Origin: a virus
IMG/VR virus record: IMGVR_UViG_3300037349_000085
Span: 1 to 39,500 of that record
Reading direction: 5' to 3' (one strand)
Length of the DNA: 39,500 bases
Made by a program: the position numbers and the translations under genes. Positions within the stretch are counted from its first letter, which is position 1. Each line of letters opens with the position of its first letter. A model generated the notes under the pieces. That model was not told the origin of the DNA. It worked only from the letters and a program-made list of their open reading frames with translations, and did no database searches. This document shows, piece after piece, positions 1 through 39,500 of the stretch.

Positions 1-127
1 TAGCCATAGCCATAGCCATTGCCATCGCCATAGCCATAGCCATAGCCATAGCAATTGCCATCGCCATAGCCATAGCCATCGCCATAGCCATCGCCATCGC
101 CATTGCCATTGCCATTGCCATAGCCAT
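1..127. repeat. Terminal direct repeat, copy 1 (circular contig overlap)
   Basis: These 127 bases are identical to 39374-39500. The repeat lies inside the hexanucleotide array, but the order of unit variants matches base for base, so it is not just generic array similarity. A 127-nt overlap is what a de Bruijn assembler with k=127 leaves when it closes a circle. The genome is therefore circular, or circularly permuted as expected for a headful-packaging P22-like phage. Confidence 0.9.
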
Positions 128-485
128 TGCCATAGCCATAGCCATAGCCATTGCCATAGCCATTGCCATCGCCATAGCCATAGCCATAGCCATTGCCATA
201 GCCATTGCCATTGCCATTGCCATTGCCATAGCCATTGCCATCGCCATAGCCATCGCCATCGCCATTGCCATTGCCATAGCCATTGCCAGACATAACCCAA
301 AGAGGAAGGCTTACGCCTATAGTATTTTTAATTTCTTCTTGCGTGTATAGCTTTCGGTTTTCCACCCAGATTAAATCATTAGTGGTAAATGATGACAGTT
401 TCTGGCCAACTTTTGGAATACTACCGCTACAAGCTCCGTGCAGTAGAACCCTAAGAACCATGTCTTTGGTTACTACGGCATTCAT
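1..485 (-). CDS. Gly-(Asn/Tyr/Asp) repeat protein, 5' part (gene crosses the contig join)
   Basis: The ATG at 485 directly abuts the TAG of the upstream gene (486-488). Reading leftward gives 66 non-repetitive residues beginning Met-Asn-Ala-Val and ending Leu-Trp-Val-Met-Ser. The frame then enters the hexamer array as GGC-NAT codon pairs, giving Gly-Asn, Gly-Tyr or Gly-Asp. Across the join it continues to a TGA at 39295-39297, for 187 residues in all: 66 unique, 109 of repeat (Gly plus 54 X-Gly pairs) and a 12-residue tail with Phe-Asp-Lys-Phe-Phe-Lys. The variable base is the first position of the second codon, so every variant changes the amino acid. The function is unknown. The Gly-rich tail suggests a flexible or low-complexity segment (inference). 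Confidence 0.75.
   Translation of the reverse strand, partial: MNAVVTKDMVLRVLLHGACSGSIPKVGQKLSSFTTNDLIWVENRKLYTQEEIKNTIGVSLPLWVMSGNGYGNGNGDGDGYGDGNGYGNGNGNGNGYGNGYGYGYGDGNGYGNGYGYGYGNGYGNGNGNGDGDGYGDGYGYGDGNCYGYGYGYGDGNGYGYG
3..287. repeat. Hexanucleotide tandem array, main part (47 of 54 units)
   Basis: Tandem units of gccat followed by a, t or c run from 3 to 284, ending with a final gcc. With the seven units at 39334-39373/2, the unwrapped array has 54 units. By hand count the variable base is a in 24, t in 21, c in 9 and g in none. One unit is imperfect (gcaatt, 51-56). There are longer internal duplications: 129-164 repeats exactly at 171-206, so the array has grown by segmental duplication as well as slippage. 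Confidence 0.95.
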
Positions 486-758
486 CTATGCAGACTCCCA
501 TGCTTTTACTGCTGCGTCCTCAACCGGCGAAACAGAAGTAATTTTGTATAAAGTAAGTTCTGTAACTCTAGCTCCTATTTTACACTCCTTATTCGGCCCG
601 GTAGAAGCAAGCCCCAGAAATCCACCAATGCTTTGGTGCCAATAAAGGCAATTGCGAACACCCGTTAATGTAACTTCGTCTGGAAGTTTTTTATCATTCT
701 TCACATACCCGAAGAAAACTCCGCGAAATTCAGTAGTAACTAATACGGCTTTAGACAT
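486..758 (-). CDS. Small phage protein resembling the DUF6948 family
   Basis: 90 residues. The N-terminal segment Val-Thr-Thr-Glu-Phe-Arg-Gly-Val-Phe-Phe-Gly-Tyr and a central Gly-Gly-Phe-Leu-Gly-Leu-Ala-Ser-Thr-Gly-Pro-Asn-Lys segment resemble a small phage family that I recall as DUF6948; this is from memory and was not searched. No enzymatic role is known to me. The stop TAG is directly followed by the ATG of the repeat gene, and the gene follows the 86-residue gene in the leftward operon. A start at 758 preceded by a GGAGAG-like site fits. Confidence 0.75.
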   Translation of the reverse strand: MSKAVLVTTEFRGVFFGYVKNDKKLPDEVTLTGVRNCLYWHQSIGGFLGLASTGPNKECKIGARVTELTLYKITSVSPVEDAAVKAWESA

Positions 759-780: not shown

Positions 781-1041
781 TTAATAATAGGTTGATTCAC
801 TACGTTCATGAGCGCGTTGTTCTTTATTCTCGTACTCGTCACGTATACGTTTGGCTTCCTCAATAATGCGGTGGAAAGCCTCATCATATCCTTCAGCGAT
901 ATATTCCCGCAGAACTTCTGCTTCTTTGGATGTAAGGCCATTGGTGTAAGCAGAATCTATGAGGTCTTGTTTGTTCTTTTTGTGCTTGGCCAGCTCCTCA
1001 CAGGCTTGCTCGTATTCGTAATCTAAACGTGACTGGTACAT
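781..1041 (-). CDS. Conserved charged helical protein, first gene of the leftward operon (paralogue A)
   Basis: 86 residues, rich in Glu, Lys and Arg and predicted mostly helical. A strong ribosome site (AAGGAGG) sits just before the ATG at 1041. It is paralogous to the 86-residue gene at 37801-38061: the first 16 and last 34 residues are nearly identical, while the middle (about residues 20-50) has diverged. It is the first gene after the leftward promoter, so probably an early product. Function unknown. Confidence 0.85.
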   Translation of the reverse strand: MYQSRLDYEYEQACEELAKHKKNKQDLIDSAYTNGLTSKEAEVLREYIAEGYDEAFHRIIEEAKRIRDEYENKEQRAHERSESTYY

Positions 1042-1130: not shown

Positions 1131-1316
1131 ATGAAATTATCTGAATACTTGAAAAAACAGGGACTTAGCCAGCAAGATTTAGCAGAAATGCTAGGCATTA
1201 CGCAGGCAGCGGTAGGTAGGTATATTACAAAAGGCAGTATTCCGCGCAGGCCTATATTGCGCAAACTGGCTGAGATTACAGGTAATGAAGTGACCTTTCA
1301 GGATTTCTACCAATGA
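1131..1316 (+). CDS. Cro/CI-like helix-turn-helix repressor
   Basis: 61 residues, about the size of lambdoid Cro. The helix-turn-helix is clear at residues 10-32: Leu-Ser-Gln-Gln-Asp-Leu-Ala-Glu-Met-Leu-Gly-Ile-Thr-Gln-Ala-Ala-Val-Gly-Arg. It has no C-terminal peptidase or dimerisation domain as in CI. It is the first gene of the rightward transcript and faces the leftward operon across overlapping promoters, so it probably represses one or both of them (inference). Its stop overlaps the next gene's start as ATGA. The ribosome site is weak (GGAAAA, about 1113). Confidence 0.85.
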   Translation: MKLSEYLKKQGLSQQDLAEMLGITQAAVGRYITKGSIPRRPILRKLAEITGNEVTFQDFYQ

Positions 1317-36797: not shown

Positions 36798-36930
36798 GGT
36801 AATTCCTTAAAATGCGTTCATCCTGTTGTAGTAATTCCGCCTGATGCTTTGAACCTTCCATGTAACTGCAATACCCAATGGTTGATATTGCCGGGACAAG
36901 GAAGGCAAGAAGCCATAATTTATTTCTCAT
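36790..36930 (-). CDS. Small single-span membrane protein (intact copy)
   Basis: 46 residues from the ATG at 36930. One membrane span near the start (Leu-Trp-Leu-Leu-Ala-Phe-Leu-Val-Pro-Ala-Ile-Ser-Thr-Ile) and a charged helical tail. A truncated, chimeric copy exists at 38926-39117: the span is shared but the tail is replaced. It overlaps the gene upstream by 11 nt and that downstream by 8 nt. Confidence 0.6.
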   Translation of the reverse strand: MRNKLWLLAFLVPAISTIGYCSYMEGSKHQAELLQQDERILRNYHD

Positions 36931-37117
36931 CTAACATCCCCATTATACGTGATGAACTTGGTGCGCGGTGCTGGTTTGGGATTTTTCGGATAACTGAAAA
37001 ATCCACAAGCCTGTCATTCCACCGATCAACAGTAGAGTGCATTTCGGGTTCTTTGATTTTATCTATAGTCATTTTACCGTCAGCGGCTATTTTTTTCATT
37101 TCAGGCGTTATGTTCAT
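36920..37117 (-). CDS. Small conserved protein, paralogue B
   Basis: 65 residues. It starts Met-Asn-Ile-Thr-Pro-Glu-Met-Lys-Lys-Ile-Ala-Ala-Asp-Gly-Lys and ends His-Arg-Ala-Pro-Ser-Ser-Ser-Arg-Ile-Met-Gly-Met-Leu-Asp-Glu-Lys. The paralogue at 39107-39298 has the same ends with a different middle. Probably helical. Function unknown. ATGA overlap with the gene before it. Confidence 0.7.
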   Translation of the reverse strand: MNITPEMKKIAADGKMTIDKIKEPEMHSTVDRWNDRLVDFSVIRKIPNQHRAPSSSRIMGMLDEK

Positions 37118-37305
37118 ACTAACTCCAATAAAAATTTTGCATTTTTTATAGCCTCTTCGTCGCCTTCAATTTTTCCTCCGCATCCAACGGCAGATTCAAA
37201 ACGCGACAAAATATCTTGCAGAGAATCTCTCAGTTTTTCCCTCTCTATTCGTACATTGAGGTAATCCTTGTTATTTTGCTGGGTGATTGCACTGTTCATA
37301 CTCAT
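37114..37305 (-). CDS. Small helical hypothetical protein
   Basis: 63 residues with AAAGGA 7 nt before the ATG at 37305. Charged helix (Arg-Ile-Glu-Arg-Glu-Lys-Leu-Arg-Asp-Ser-Leu) and a Gly-rich turn (Gly-Cys-Gly-Gly-Lys-Ile-Glu-Gly). It has no counterpart in module A. ATGA overlap downstream. Confidence 0.65.
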   Translation of the reverse strand: MSMNSAITQQNNKDYLNVRIEREKLRDSLQDILSRFESAVGCGGKIEGDEEAIKNAKFLLELV

Positions 37306-37318
37306 CCGAATGTCCTTT

Positions 37319-37435
37319 CTAAATTTTTCCCGACCCCGACCCCGACCACGACCGCGACCCCGACCACGACCGCGACCCCGACCCCGACCCCGACCCCGAC
37401 CGATCCCAACCTAATCTAAGTCCTACCGCGTTCAT
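37319..37435 (-). CDS. Ser-(Gly/Arg/Trp) repeat peptide, second hexamer gene
   Basis: 38 residues from the ATG at 37435, directly abutting the preceding TAA (37436-37438). It begins Met-Asn-Ala-Val, as does the large repeat gene at 485. After 12 residues it becomes Ser-Gly, Ser-Arg and Ser-Trp pairs encoded by TCG-NGG hexamers, ending Gly-Lys-Ile. It is probably a short or decayed relative of the 187-residue repeat gene, at the same place in the module. Whether it is made as protein is uncertain. Confidence 0.5.
   Translation of the reverse strand: MNAVGLRLGWDRSGSGSGSGSRSWSGSRSWSGSGSGKI
37330..37401. repeat. Second hexanucleotide tandem array (12 units)
   Basis: Twelve units of [c/a/g]cgacc: c-type in eight, a-type in two, g-type in two, none with t. 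Unlike the first array in sequence and GC-rich, but alike in unit length, in having one variable base per unit and in lacking one of the four bases there. Confidence 0.9.
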
Positions 37436-37792
37436 TTACTTTTGCTCTTTAGGAAGTTTGTGTGTCCAAATGGTAGCGTCTATGATTGAACCGCGCCCGA
37501 TTATTACATCAGTAAGGAATGGTTCAATTTCATTTAAAGTTCCTTTTTTAAGTGCATCATGAAAACGTCCTGTATCTGCAATCCATGCAGCAGATGAAAG
37601 CACAAGTTCTTGTGGCCCTACTGACTCCAATCTTCCAATCTGAATCATTGTTACAGTGCGAATAAGATAGTTTTCACCAACCTTATAAGGGCAAGGATAT
37701 TCTTCTTTCCCTTTTCCTAAAAGACATTGGAGGTCACGCACTTGTTTTACAGTAAGGTTATCAATATCTAGATTATCCACTTTATTCTCCAT
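37436..37792 (-). CDS. Conserved small phage protein
   Basis: 118 residues. The core Tyr-Leu-Ile-Arg-Thr-Val-Thr-Met, then Ile-Gly-Arg-Leu, Ala-Ala-Trp-Ile-Ala-Asp-Thr-Gly-Arg-Phe-His-Asp-Ala-Leu and Ile-Asp-Ala-Thr-Ile-Trp-Thr-His-Lys-Leu-Pro recurs in many phages as a protein of unknown role. It takes the same place in module B as the DUF6948-like gene in module A. Their patterns are loosely similar (Thr-x-x-x-Gly strands, then Trp-Ile or Tyr-Trp), so a shared fold is possible. Confidence 0.7.
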   Translation of the reverse strand: MENKVDNLDIDNLTVKQVRDLQCLLGKGKEEYPCPYKVGENYLIRTVTMIQIGRLESVGPQELVLSSAAWIADTGRFHDALKKGTLNEIEPFLTDVIIGRGSIIDATIWTHKLPKEQK

Positions 37793-37800
37793 TGTTGAAA

Positions 37801-38061
37801 TTAAAAATAGGTTGATTCACTACGTTCATGGGCGCGTTGTTCTTTGTTTTCGTAATCATCACGTATACGCTTTGCTTCCTCAATAATACGATGGAATGCG
37901 TTGTCGTATGTTTCCTCTGCTTCTGCTTTGAAACGCTCTATTTCCTTTGCGGTAAGATGGTGCACGGGAACGGTATCAATGAATTCCTGTTTGCGTTTTT
38001 CATGTTTAGCGATTTCCTCACAGGCTTGCTCGTATTCGTAATCTAAACGTGACTGGTACAT
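37801..38061 (-). CDS. Conserved charged helical protein (paralogue B)
   Basis: 86 residues, the same length as the gene at 781-1041. The start (16 of 17 residues) and the last 34 residues are nearly identical to it. Residues about 20-50 differ strongly. GGAGG lies 6 nt before the ATG, in a 57-bp stretch shared exactly with copy A. Function unknown. Confidence 0.85.
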   Translation of the reverse strand: MYQSRLDYEYEQACEEIAKHEKRKQEFIDTVPVHHLTAKEIERFKAEAEETYDNAFHRIIEEAKRIRDDYENKEQRAHERSESTYF

Positions 38062-38998: not shown

Positions 38999-39117
38999 GG
39001 CACATTGGGCCAAACGCAGCAAAATGAAAAACGCAGACTATACCCAATGGTTGATATTGCCGGGATAAGGAAGGCAAGAAGCCAAACATAAGTAGGAATC
39101 CAAAAACTATTTCTCAT
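38926..39117 (-). CDS. Chimeric small membrane protein (rearranged copy)
   Basis: 63 residues from the ATG at 39117. The N-terminal span (Trp-Leu-Leu-Ala-Phe-Leu-Ile-Pro-Ala-Ile-Ser-Thr-Ile-Gly-Tyr) matches the intact gene at 36790-36930. From position 39042 leftward the reading frame runs antisense through the 43-bp rusA fragment and then, out of frame, through the remnant of another gene. The tail is therefore novel sequence and may be non-functional. Confidence 0.5.
   Translation of the reverse strand: MRNSFWIPTYVWLLAFLIPAISTIGYSLRFSFCCVWPNVPIRGERKKEKTDSALRLWKPLRDC
39000..39042. repeat. 43-bp rusA fragment inserted in the leftward operon
   Basis: Identical to 1376-1418 in rusA, same orientation, hence antisense to the genes it interrupts. 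At its right edge it joins sequence homologous to 36872 onward. Both parents share ATA at the junction, a 3-bp microhomology typical of illegitimate recombination. Confidence 0.9.
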
Positions 39118-39298
39118 CCAACATCCCCAATATACGTGATGAACTGGGTGCGCGATGTGGATTAGGGGTATAAGCCCTGATATCCTTAAGGCTGTCTTCC
39201 CAGCGTTGCACATTAGAATGCATTTCAGGTTCTTTGAGTTTATCTGCAATCATTTTTCCATCCGCTGCAATCTTGCGCATTTCAGGGGTTATTTTCAT
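39107..39298 (-). CDS. Small conserved protein, paralogue A
   Basis: 63 residues starting Met-Lys-Ile-Thr-Pro-Glu-Met-Arg-Lys-Ile-Ala-Ala-Asp-Gly-Lys and ending Ser-Ser-Ser-Arg-Ile-Leu-Gly-Met-Leu-Asp-Glu-Lys, paralogous to 36920-37117. Its ATG overlaps the TGA of the Gly-repeat gene (ATGA), so it depends on translation through the repeat array. It overlaps the chimeric membrane gene by 11 nt, as in module B. Confidence 0.7.
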   Translation of the reverse strand: MKITPEMRKIAADGKMIADKLKEPEMHSNVQRWEDSLKDIRAYTPNPHRAPSSSRILGMLDEK

Positions 39299-39500
39299 AC
39301 AAGAACTAACATTTTAAAAAATTTATCAAATAAGCCATAGCCATTGCCATTGCCATAGCCATTGCCATTGCCATAGCCATAGCCATAGCCATTGCCATCG
39401 CCATAGCCATAGCCATAGCCATAGCAATTGCCATCGCCATAGCCATAGCCATCGCCATAGCCATCGCCATCGCCATTGCCATTGCCATTGCCATAGCCAT
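39295..39500 (-). CDS. Gly-(Asn/Tyr/Asp) repeat protein, 3' part (continuation across the join)
   Basis: This is the 3' end of the gene that starts at 485. After the last Gly codon at 39334-39336 the frame encodes a short hydrophobic/basic tail and stops at TGA 39295-39297. That TGA overlaps the ATG (39296-39298) of the next gene as ATGA, a standard sign of translational coupling. A Met-Ala frame in the same stretch is longer within the linear window, but it has no independent start signal or context and is taken as a shadow. Confidence 0.75.
   Translation of the reverse strand, partial: GYGNGNGNGDGDGYGDGYGYGDGNCYGYGYGYGDGNGYGYGYGNGNGYGNGNGYGLFDKFFKMLVLV
39334..39500. repeat. Hexanucleotide tandem array, other end
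   Basis: The same gccat[a/t/c] hexamer starts at 39334 and runs to the window end. Its last 127 bases duplicate the window start. Only seven units (39334 to the join) are additional to those counted at the left end. Confidence 0.95.
39374..39500. repeat. Terminal direct repeat, copy 2 (circular contig overlap)
   Basis: Exact copy of positions 1-127. Joining 39373 to 1 keeps both the hexamer phase and the minus-strand reading frame of the repeat gene, which supports true circularity. Confidence 0.9.

Follow-up and report, generated by a model that had tools for sequence, protein, structure and literature searches.

A circular viral genome from IMG/VR carries, directly behind the stop codon of a 118-residue gene, a 38-residue open reading frame (ORF) built largely from a six-base repeat, and a larger array of a different hexamer, GGC-NAT, follows the equivalent gene of a second module. 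Do the two arrays mark a locus with a bias towards 6-bp repeats, or a peptide of alternating small and variable residues that is under selection? Here the window is the whole stretch of DNA analysed, 39,500 nucleotides, which codes for terminase, portal and DNA-ejection-type proteins.

Two paralogous modules in the window

One gene order is present twice on the minus strand: an 86-aa gene, a predicted Sm-like gene, an array gene, and small genes including one of 63 or 65 aa. The two copies, modules A and B, comprise the following features.

37801..38061, minus strand: B86, 86-aa gene, first of module B, paralogue of A86 (72% identity).
37436..37792, minus strand: B118, 118-aa protein, predicted Sm/LSm fold, distant DUF6948 relative (AF2, Foldseek, BFVD).
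37319..37435, minus strand: 38-aa S-[G/R/W] dipeptide-repeat ORF, array gene of module B (translation; same pattern after 72/80 relatives of the upstream gene).
37114..37305, minus strand: 63-aa gene immediately downstream of the S-array ORF (no family match).
36920..37117, minus strand: 65-aa gene downstream of module B, paralogue of the gene at 39107-39298 (sequence comparison).
781..1041, minus strand: A86, 86-aa gene, first of module A, adjoining a divergent HTH regulator gene at 1131-1316 (plus strand).
486..758, minus strand: A90, 90-aa DUF6948 (PF22253) protein, predicted Sm/LSm fold (Pfam, AF2, Foldseek).
1..485, minus strand: first part of the module A array gene, with an N-terminal domain of ~65 aa and a G-[Y/D/N] array; its start abuts the A90 stop, and the gene crosses the circle junction.
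39306..39500, minus strand: end part of the module A array gene; its last 127 bp repeat window positions 1-127.
39107..39298, minus strand: 63-aa gene downstream of module A, paralogue of the gene at 36920-37117 (sequence comparison).

An earlier, sequence-only reading had described the 38-aa ORF as a hexamer array starting directly after the preceding stop codon, and this is real. The 118-aa gene (37792-37436) and the ORF meet with zero gap at AAG TAA ATG, and 11 successive hexamers have at least five of their six bases in common, compared with a maximum of 2 in 50 shuffles (9.3-kb stretch). The minus-strand translation of 37435-37319 is MNAVGLRLGWDRSGSGSGSGSRSWSGSRSWSGSGSGKI, ending at the stop codon. 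It starts with MNAVGLRLGWDR (M-N-A-V-G-L-R-L-G-W-D-R) and continues with twelve Ser-X units, in which Ser is always TCG (12/12) and X is GGG (seven units), CGG (two), TGG (two) or GGA (one). The ORF had been read as consisting of hexamers whose one variable base always changes the residue; the repeat accounts for about 24 of the 38 residues but not for the remainder, and the rule holds for eleven units but not for the last (GGA).

The large GGC-NAT array of module A was also borne out, with 54 units in which N is T (24), A (21) or G (9) and never C. Its length is uncertain and it may be mis-assembled, because an exact 127-bp terminal repeat of the circular genome (1-127 = 39374-39500) lies inside it; 127 bp is a common assembler k-mer size. 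Many contigs with a B118 gene likewise terminate within their own array.

The modules are paralogous, as had been proposed: the 86-aa genes are 72% identical, and the upstream proteins share a predicted fold and, via an intermediate, a profile family. No relatives of B86 were found in a search of viral contigs. The Met-Asn-Ala-Val start, taken as a common feature of both array genes, is literally shared but does not hold as homology, since the N-terminal consensus differs between the array families: S-type starts read MN(A/Q)AxLRxGxD, and the module A start is part of an N-terminal domain of the GAC..PLW kind. Judged from these sequences, the shared start is probably a coincidence.

A NinB/Orf recombination gene lies downstream of the modules, and the operon points away from the HTH regulator gene. 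Because of these two neighbours, a putative early role for the predicted Sm/array module is likely. Between the modules lies a third low-complexity gene, P0002 (38897-38097, minus strand), whose 266-aa product contains an Ala/Tyr/Asp run of 62 residues encoded only by NNT codons (GCT 48, TAT 7, GAT 5, AAT 1, TCT 1). P0002 had no family match, and no Sm-like gene was seen immediately upstream of it.

The upstream proteins have a predicted Sm/LSm fold

AF2 models of B118 and A90 reached pLDDT values of 91.4 and 96.5, respectively. Both follow the order strand-strand-strand-helix-strands and form a predicted five-stranded SH3-like Sm barrel. Foldseek searches against the PDB with B118 and A90 returned nearly all Sm/LSm proteins, with probability 1.00 and E values of 1e-3 to 2e-2 (best 1e-3 to 5e-3); the best matches to B118 were LSM14, SmF/G, Lsm1-7 and SmAP1. 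In the BFVD viral library, the top match to B118 was a DUF6948 protein (E 2.8e-4), and a Barba phage protein ranked fifth.

By sequence, A90 is a member of DUF6948 (PF22253), scoring 71.3 bits against a gathering cut-off of 27. B118 had no Pfam match, reaching the gathering cut-off of neither LSM nor DUF6948, and is therefore not assigned to DUF6948, to which it is related only at the level of profile and predicted fold. The profile link runs through ARRLW-type DUF6948 proteins, which matched B118 with E 4.9e-12 and the A90 family with E 1.3e-15; the direct match between B118 and the window's own DUF6948 family was weak (E 0.047). When aligned by hhalign with 31 archaeal LSM sequences, B118 gave E 0.05 and the ARRLW type 0.04 (reversed controls, 0.46 and 0.33). 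This LSM profile match is only suggestive; the assignment to the Sm proteins therefore depends on the predicted structure.

The likeness to spliceosomal Sm, Lsm1-7 and archaeal SmAP proteins lies in the predicted SH3-like barrel, with target-length TM values reaching 0.7-0.8. The phage proteins differ from them in lacking a significant sequence match and in having an extra helix between strands 3 and 4. A sequence search of the PDB returned no relatives, and PADLOC anti-phage defence models matched neither the Sm-like nor the array proteins. The models and their Foldseek matches predict an Sm/LSm fold for both upstream families.

Array genes follow both families of Sm-like genes

The sequence-only reading had suggested listing what follows homologues of both upstream genes, and when this was done, hexamer arrays were found to be the rule. 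A scan of viral contigs with B118 gave 142 relatives. We retained 80 of them; each scan's 80 loci are a sample, with some near-copies among them. An ORF of Ser alternating mostly with Gly, Arg or Trp, hereafter an S-[GRW] array, lay directly after 72 of the 80 (two degenerate). In the other 8 the array was absent or only a remnant, and the Sm-like protein can therefore exist without an array. The S array also followed all four B118 relatives detected in MAG contigs of bacteria or archaea, and it is present in the single GenBank phage record with a B118 relative (UOF78857.1/UOF78858.1).

The reverse test was made independently of the gene, by scanning DNA for six TCGNGG or AGCNGG units, which yielded 71 and 11 S-[GRW] loci, respectively. 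Among those with enough upstream sequence, a B118-family gene lay at most 1 kb upstream in 36/46 TCG loci and 7/8 AGC loci; random control segments contained such a gene in 11/435 and 0/216 cases. The start and stop codons overlap as ATGA in 54 of 70 S-array ORFs, with an offset of -1 in 6 more, and translational coupling was inferred from this overlap. Loci L336, L339, L323, L273, L289 and L313 have another subtype of S array, whose N-terminus is basic (e.g. MRSSKQKYR); the B118-like gene that precedes it is more divergent, with E about 1e-4 to 1e-6.

Nearly all of the 42 DUF6948 relatives of A90 had a hexamer array close downstream. A blind scan for Gly arrays placed a gene of the superfamily upstream in 43 of 46 loci with leave-one-out profiles, a figure given because genes upstream of the arrays had served to build the ARRLW and QRGW profiles; with only the two profiles not built from those loci, the count was 34/46. 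A DUF6948-type gene is present in 115 Rheinheimera Barba isolates and in Pectobacterium/Dickeya phages, and also in Iodobacter phiPLPE, Rhodobacter RcapNL, Vibrio IKEMa6-1 and Chlorobiaceae CV-1-33. Wherever the sequence was inspected (nine Barba isolates, 8/8 Pectobacterium/Dickeya phages and the other single representatives), a Gly array stood behind it. These results indicate that a predicted Sm-like gene and a dipeptide-repeat gene form a widespread phage pair, conserved far beyond its annotation.

Several loci depart from the usual annotation or layout. The CV-1-33 array (L252, MT192033.1, gene 25) is mis-framed in its annotation (MAMALAM...), and its Sm-coupled frame reads MDGINYGYGDGDGSG. 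At L272 (MW202748.1, UOF81530.1), a Gly-Tyr/Asp array protein bears the label 'lamprin', the name of a cartilage protein of animals, which is a low-complexity mis-annotation. A C-terminal domain with a motif like VYxIDxxPTIIxxVKG follows some Gly arrays (L144, L169, L172, L176, L198, L201, L202 and L255), and at L097 the DUF6948 gene is followed by a pentapeptide-repeat-like protein with no dipeptide array. We found no description of DUF6948 or of the array pairing in open-licence papers, although an account may exist elsewhere, and the main text of the Rheinheimera phage papers does not name the genes by number. The gene pair is apparently undescribed so far.

The type of array matches the Sm subfamily

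Across unrelated phages, S-[GRW] arrays follow the B118 family and G-[YDSN] arrays follow the DUF6948 types. That each Sm subfamily has its own array chemistry speaks against the proposal that the locus is prone to building 6-bp repeats. Nor is there support for the suggestion that the same locus acquired an array twice, since the arrays are subfamily-specific and only 3 of 50 B118 phages also carry DUF6948. Together with the overlap of the genes, the subfamily-specific array type makes a physical partnership of the two proteins the simplest reading, and we regard this putative partnership as fairly probable.

Alternatively, the array protein might act by itself, as a free cationic/aromatic or anionic/aromatic polymer with host nucleic acid, enzymes or membrane as its binding target; the Sm-like gene would then be a mere operon neighbour. 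This would fit arrays that are separate ORFs and that come in two types of opposite net charge (per 100 residues, +18.6 for S arrays and -13.3 for G arrays). However, the adjacency is very tight and subfamily-specific and includes start/stop overlap across unrelated phages, and such a neighbour is rare beside random control segments; we therefore consider an array acting alone unlikely. The Sm cores also differ in charge, with a mean of -2.1 for partners of S arrays and about +0.5 for partners of G arrays (p 2e-9), a contrast of one clade with three that is confounded by ancestry. Within pairs, the charges of Sm core and array showed no correlation (rho 0.10). Coacervation of cationic with anionic arrays was rejected as a necessary mechanism, because only 3/50 B118 phages carry DUF6948.

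Selection acts on the peptide while the arrays turn over

The variation within units was then compared with the array consensus. Among 1833 S units, deviations amounted to 0.3/0.3/3.1% at the three bases of the Ser codon and 52/8/6% at those of the X codon; among 4998 G units, they were 0/0/3% at the Gly codon and 32/27/1.5% at the X codon. The Ser codon is near-uniform inside one array and varies between phages, roughly tracking genome GC. On the B118 tree, TCN and AGY codons were exchanged at least 12 times with no clustering, and at least 4 of these switches are forced by well-supported branches; the arrays at L016 and L027, for example, use AGC and TCT, and their Sm-like proteins are 86% identical. 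The unit variation and the codon switching strongly support selection on the peptide and not on the DNA, and hence the selection for alternating small/variable dipeptides that the sequence-only reading had offered as its second explanation. We are close to certain of the anatomy of the pair and of this protein-level selection.

Given the composition, the order of units is random (mean z -0.12 and -0.33). The composition itself is conserved, Y and D both occurring in 205/209 G arrays and G, R and W all in 90/97 S arrays. The arrays turn over fast, by whole hexamers. In Taid, Ymer and Amona, three phages of Pectobacterium, the Sm-like genes are 1 nt from Taid's, yet the arrays, of 85, 73 and 67 aa, are reordered and differ in length by whole hexamers. 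Such indels and reordering are unlike the template-copied substitutions of a diversity-generating retroelement. The window's S array is among the shorter members of its type.

Different arrays in near-identical phages, and nonsynonymous variation far above synonymous variation, could mean that variation itself is selected, the array serving, in an arms race with hosts, as a surface for recognition or decoy that changes quickly. We judge this improbable, since random order with a fixed alphabet is expected if composition matters and order drifts, and since most of the Barba isolates sampled have nearly one array in common.

The arrays might also form a structural material of the silk or amyloid kind, perhaps as part of the virion. 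Their G-Y/G-S repeats resemble silk-type low-complexity sequence (one is annotated as 'lamprin'), and the alternation of small and large residues suits beta-strands. No single gene neighbour recurs across the loci. The neighbours are early, recombination and regulatory genes (NinB, HTH, RusA; Erf/SSB, RecE/Bet), mostly not structural ones, and the S type is strongly cationic, which leaves a structural role with little to recommend it.

Neutral slippage without function would expand simple repeats and change them by whole hexamers, as seen here; it is very improbable, however, because the same few residues out of all codons recur across distant phages despite repeated codon switches, and identical neighbouring units are not in excess. 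A role of the repeat as DNA or RNA, through binding sites, a recombination hot spot or ribosome stalling, would agree with the six-base periodicity and with the assembly breaks and rearrangement within arrays, but is scarcely credible, as the word changes freely (TCG, TCA, TCT, AGC, AGT; CGG or AGG) and the codon family has switched repeatedly with the peptide kept constant.

A proposed coupling of an Sm-like protein and a low-complexity tail

The putative partnership of the two proteins suggests a mechanism. The first gene encodes a small protein of predicted Sm/LSm fold (B118 family or DUF6948), and the second, translationally coupled as judged from the overlap, a short N-terminal segment followed by a strictly alternating dipeptide array. 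The array protein would attach to the Sm-like protein, which may be a ring should it assemble as other Sm proteins do. The attached chain would serve in trans as a multivalent tail, in which the aromatic and charged residues act as stickers and Ser or Gly as spacers. Such a tail could concentrate nucleic acid or host or phage factors early in infection. Taken as a whole, this explanation of a coupled Sm-like protein and low-complexity tail in trans is plausible, and we stop short of calling it probable. A putative role in condensates or with RNA is a more tentative part of it.

RG-rich C-terminal tails are present on SmD1, SmD3 and SmB (PMC10578488). They are the nearest analogy, combining an Sm fold with a dipeptide-repeat low-complexity tail, and the array might act in a like manner from a separate chain; the phage loci read here have separate ORFs with S-[GRW] or G-[YDSN] repeats in place of a fused RG repeat. 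To our knowledge, the PRMT5/SMN pathway is absent from bacteria. Stickers-and-spacers models predict alternating spacers and aromatic or charged residues in free order (PMC7865556). The phage arrays resemble prion-like domains of this kind in alternating aromatic or charged residues with Ser or Gly and in the precedence of composition over order, and they differ in their strict period-2 alternation and hexamer turnover.

Phages with very different hosts thus share a two-gene module whose members are annotated as unrelated hypotheticals and are sometimes mis-framed. The arrays amount to a natural evolution experiment: in hundreds of low-complexity domains, the DNA was rewritten often and the residue alphabet stayed fixed. 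For this reason, the selected features of low-complexity domains can be tested directly, and cultured phages offer the material. Should the Sm-like part bind RNA, the pair would be a phage RNP system, of which we found none described. A phage Sm-type RNP with a separate, reshuffled dipeptide-repeat tail, building an early RNA- or DNA-rich compartment, is a rather doubtful extension of the coupled-pair explanation; if true, viruses would have a two-chain equivalent of the Sm proteins with RG tails.
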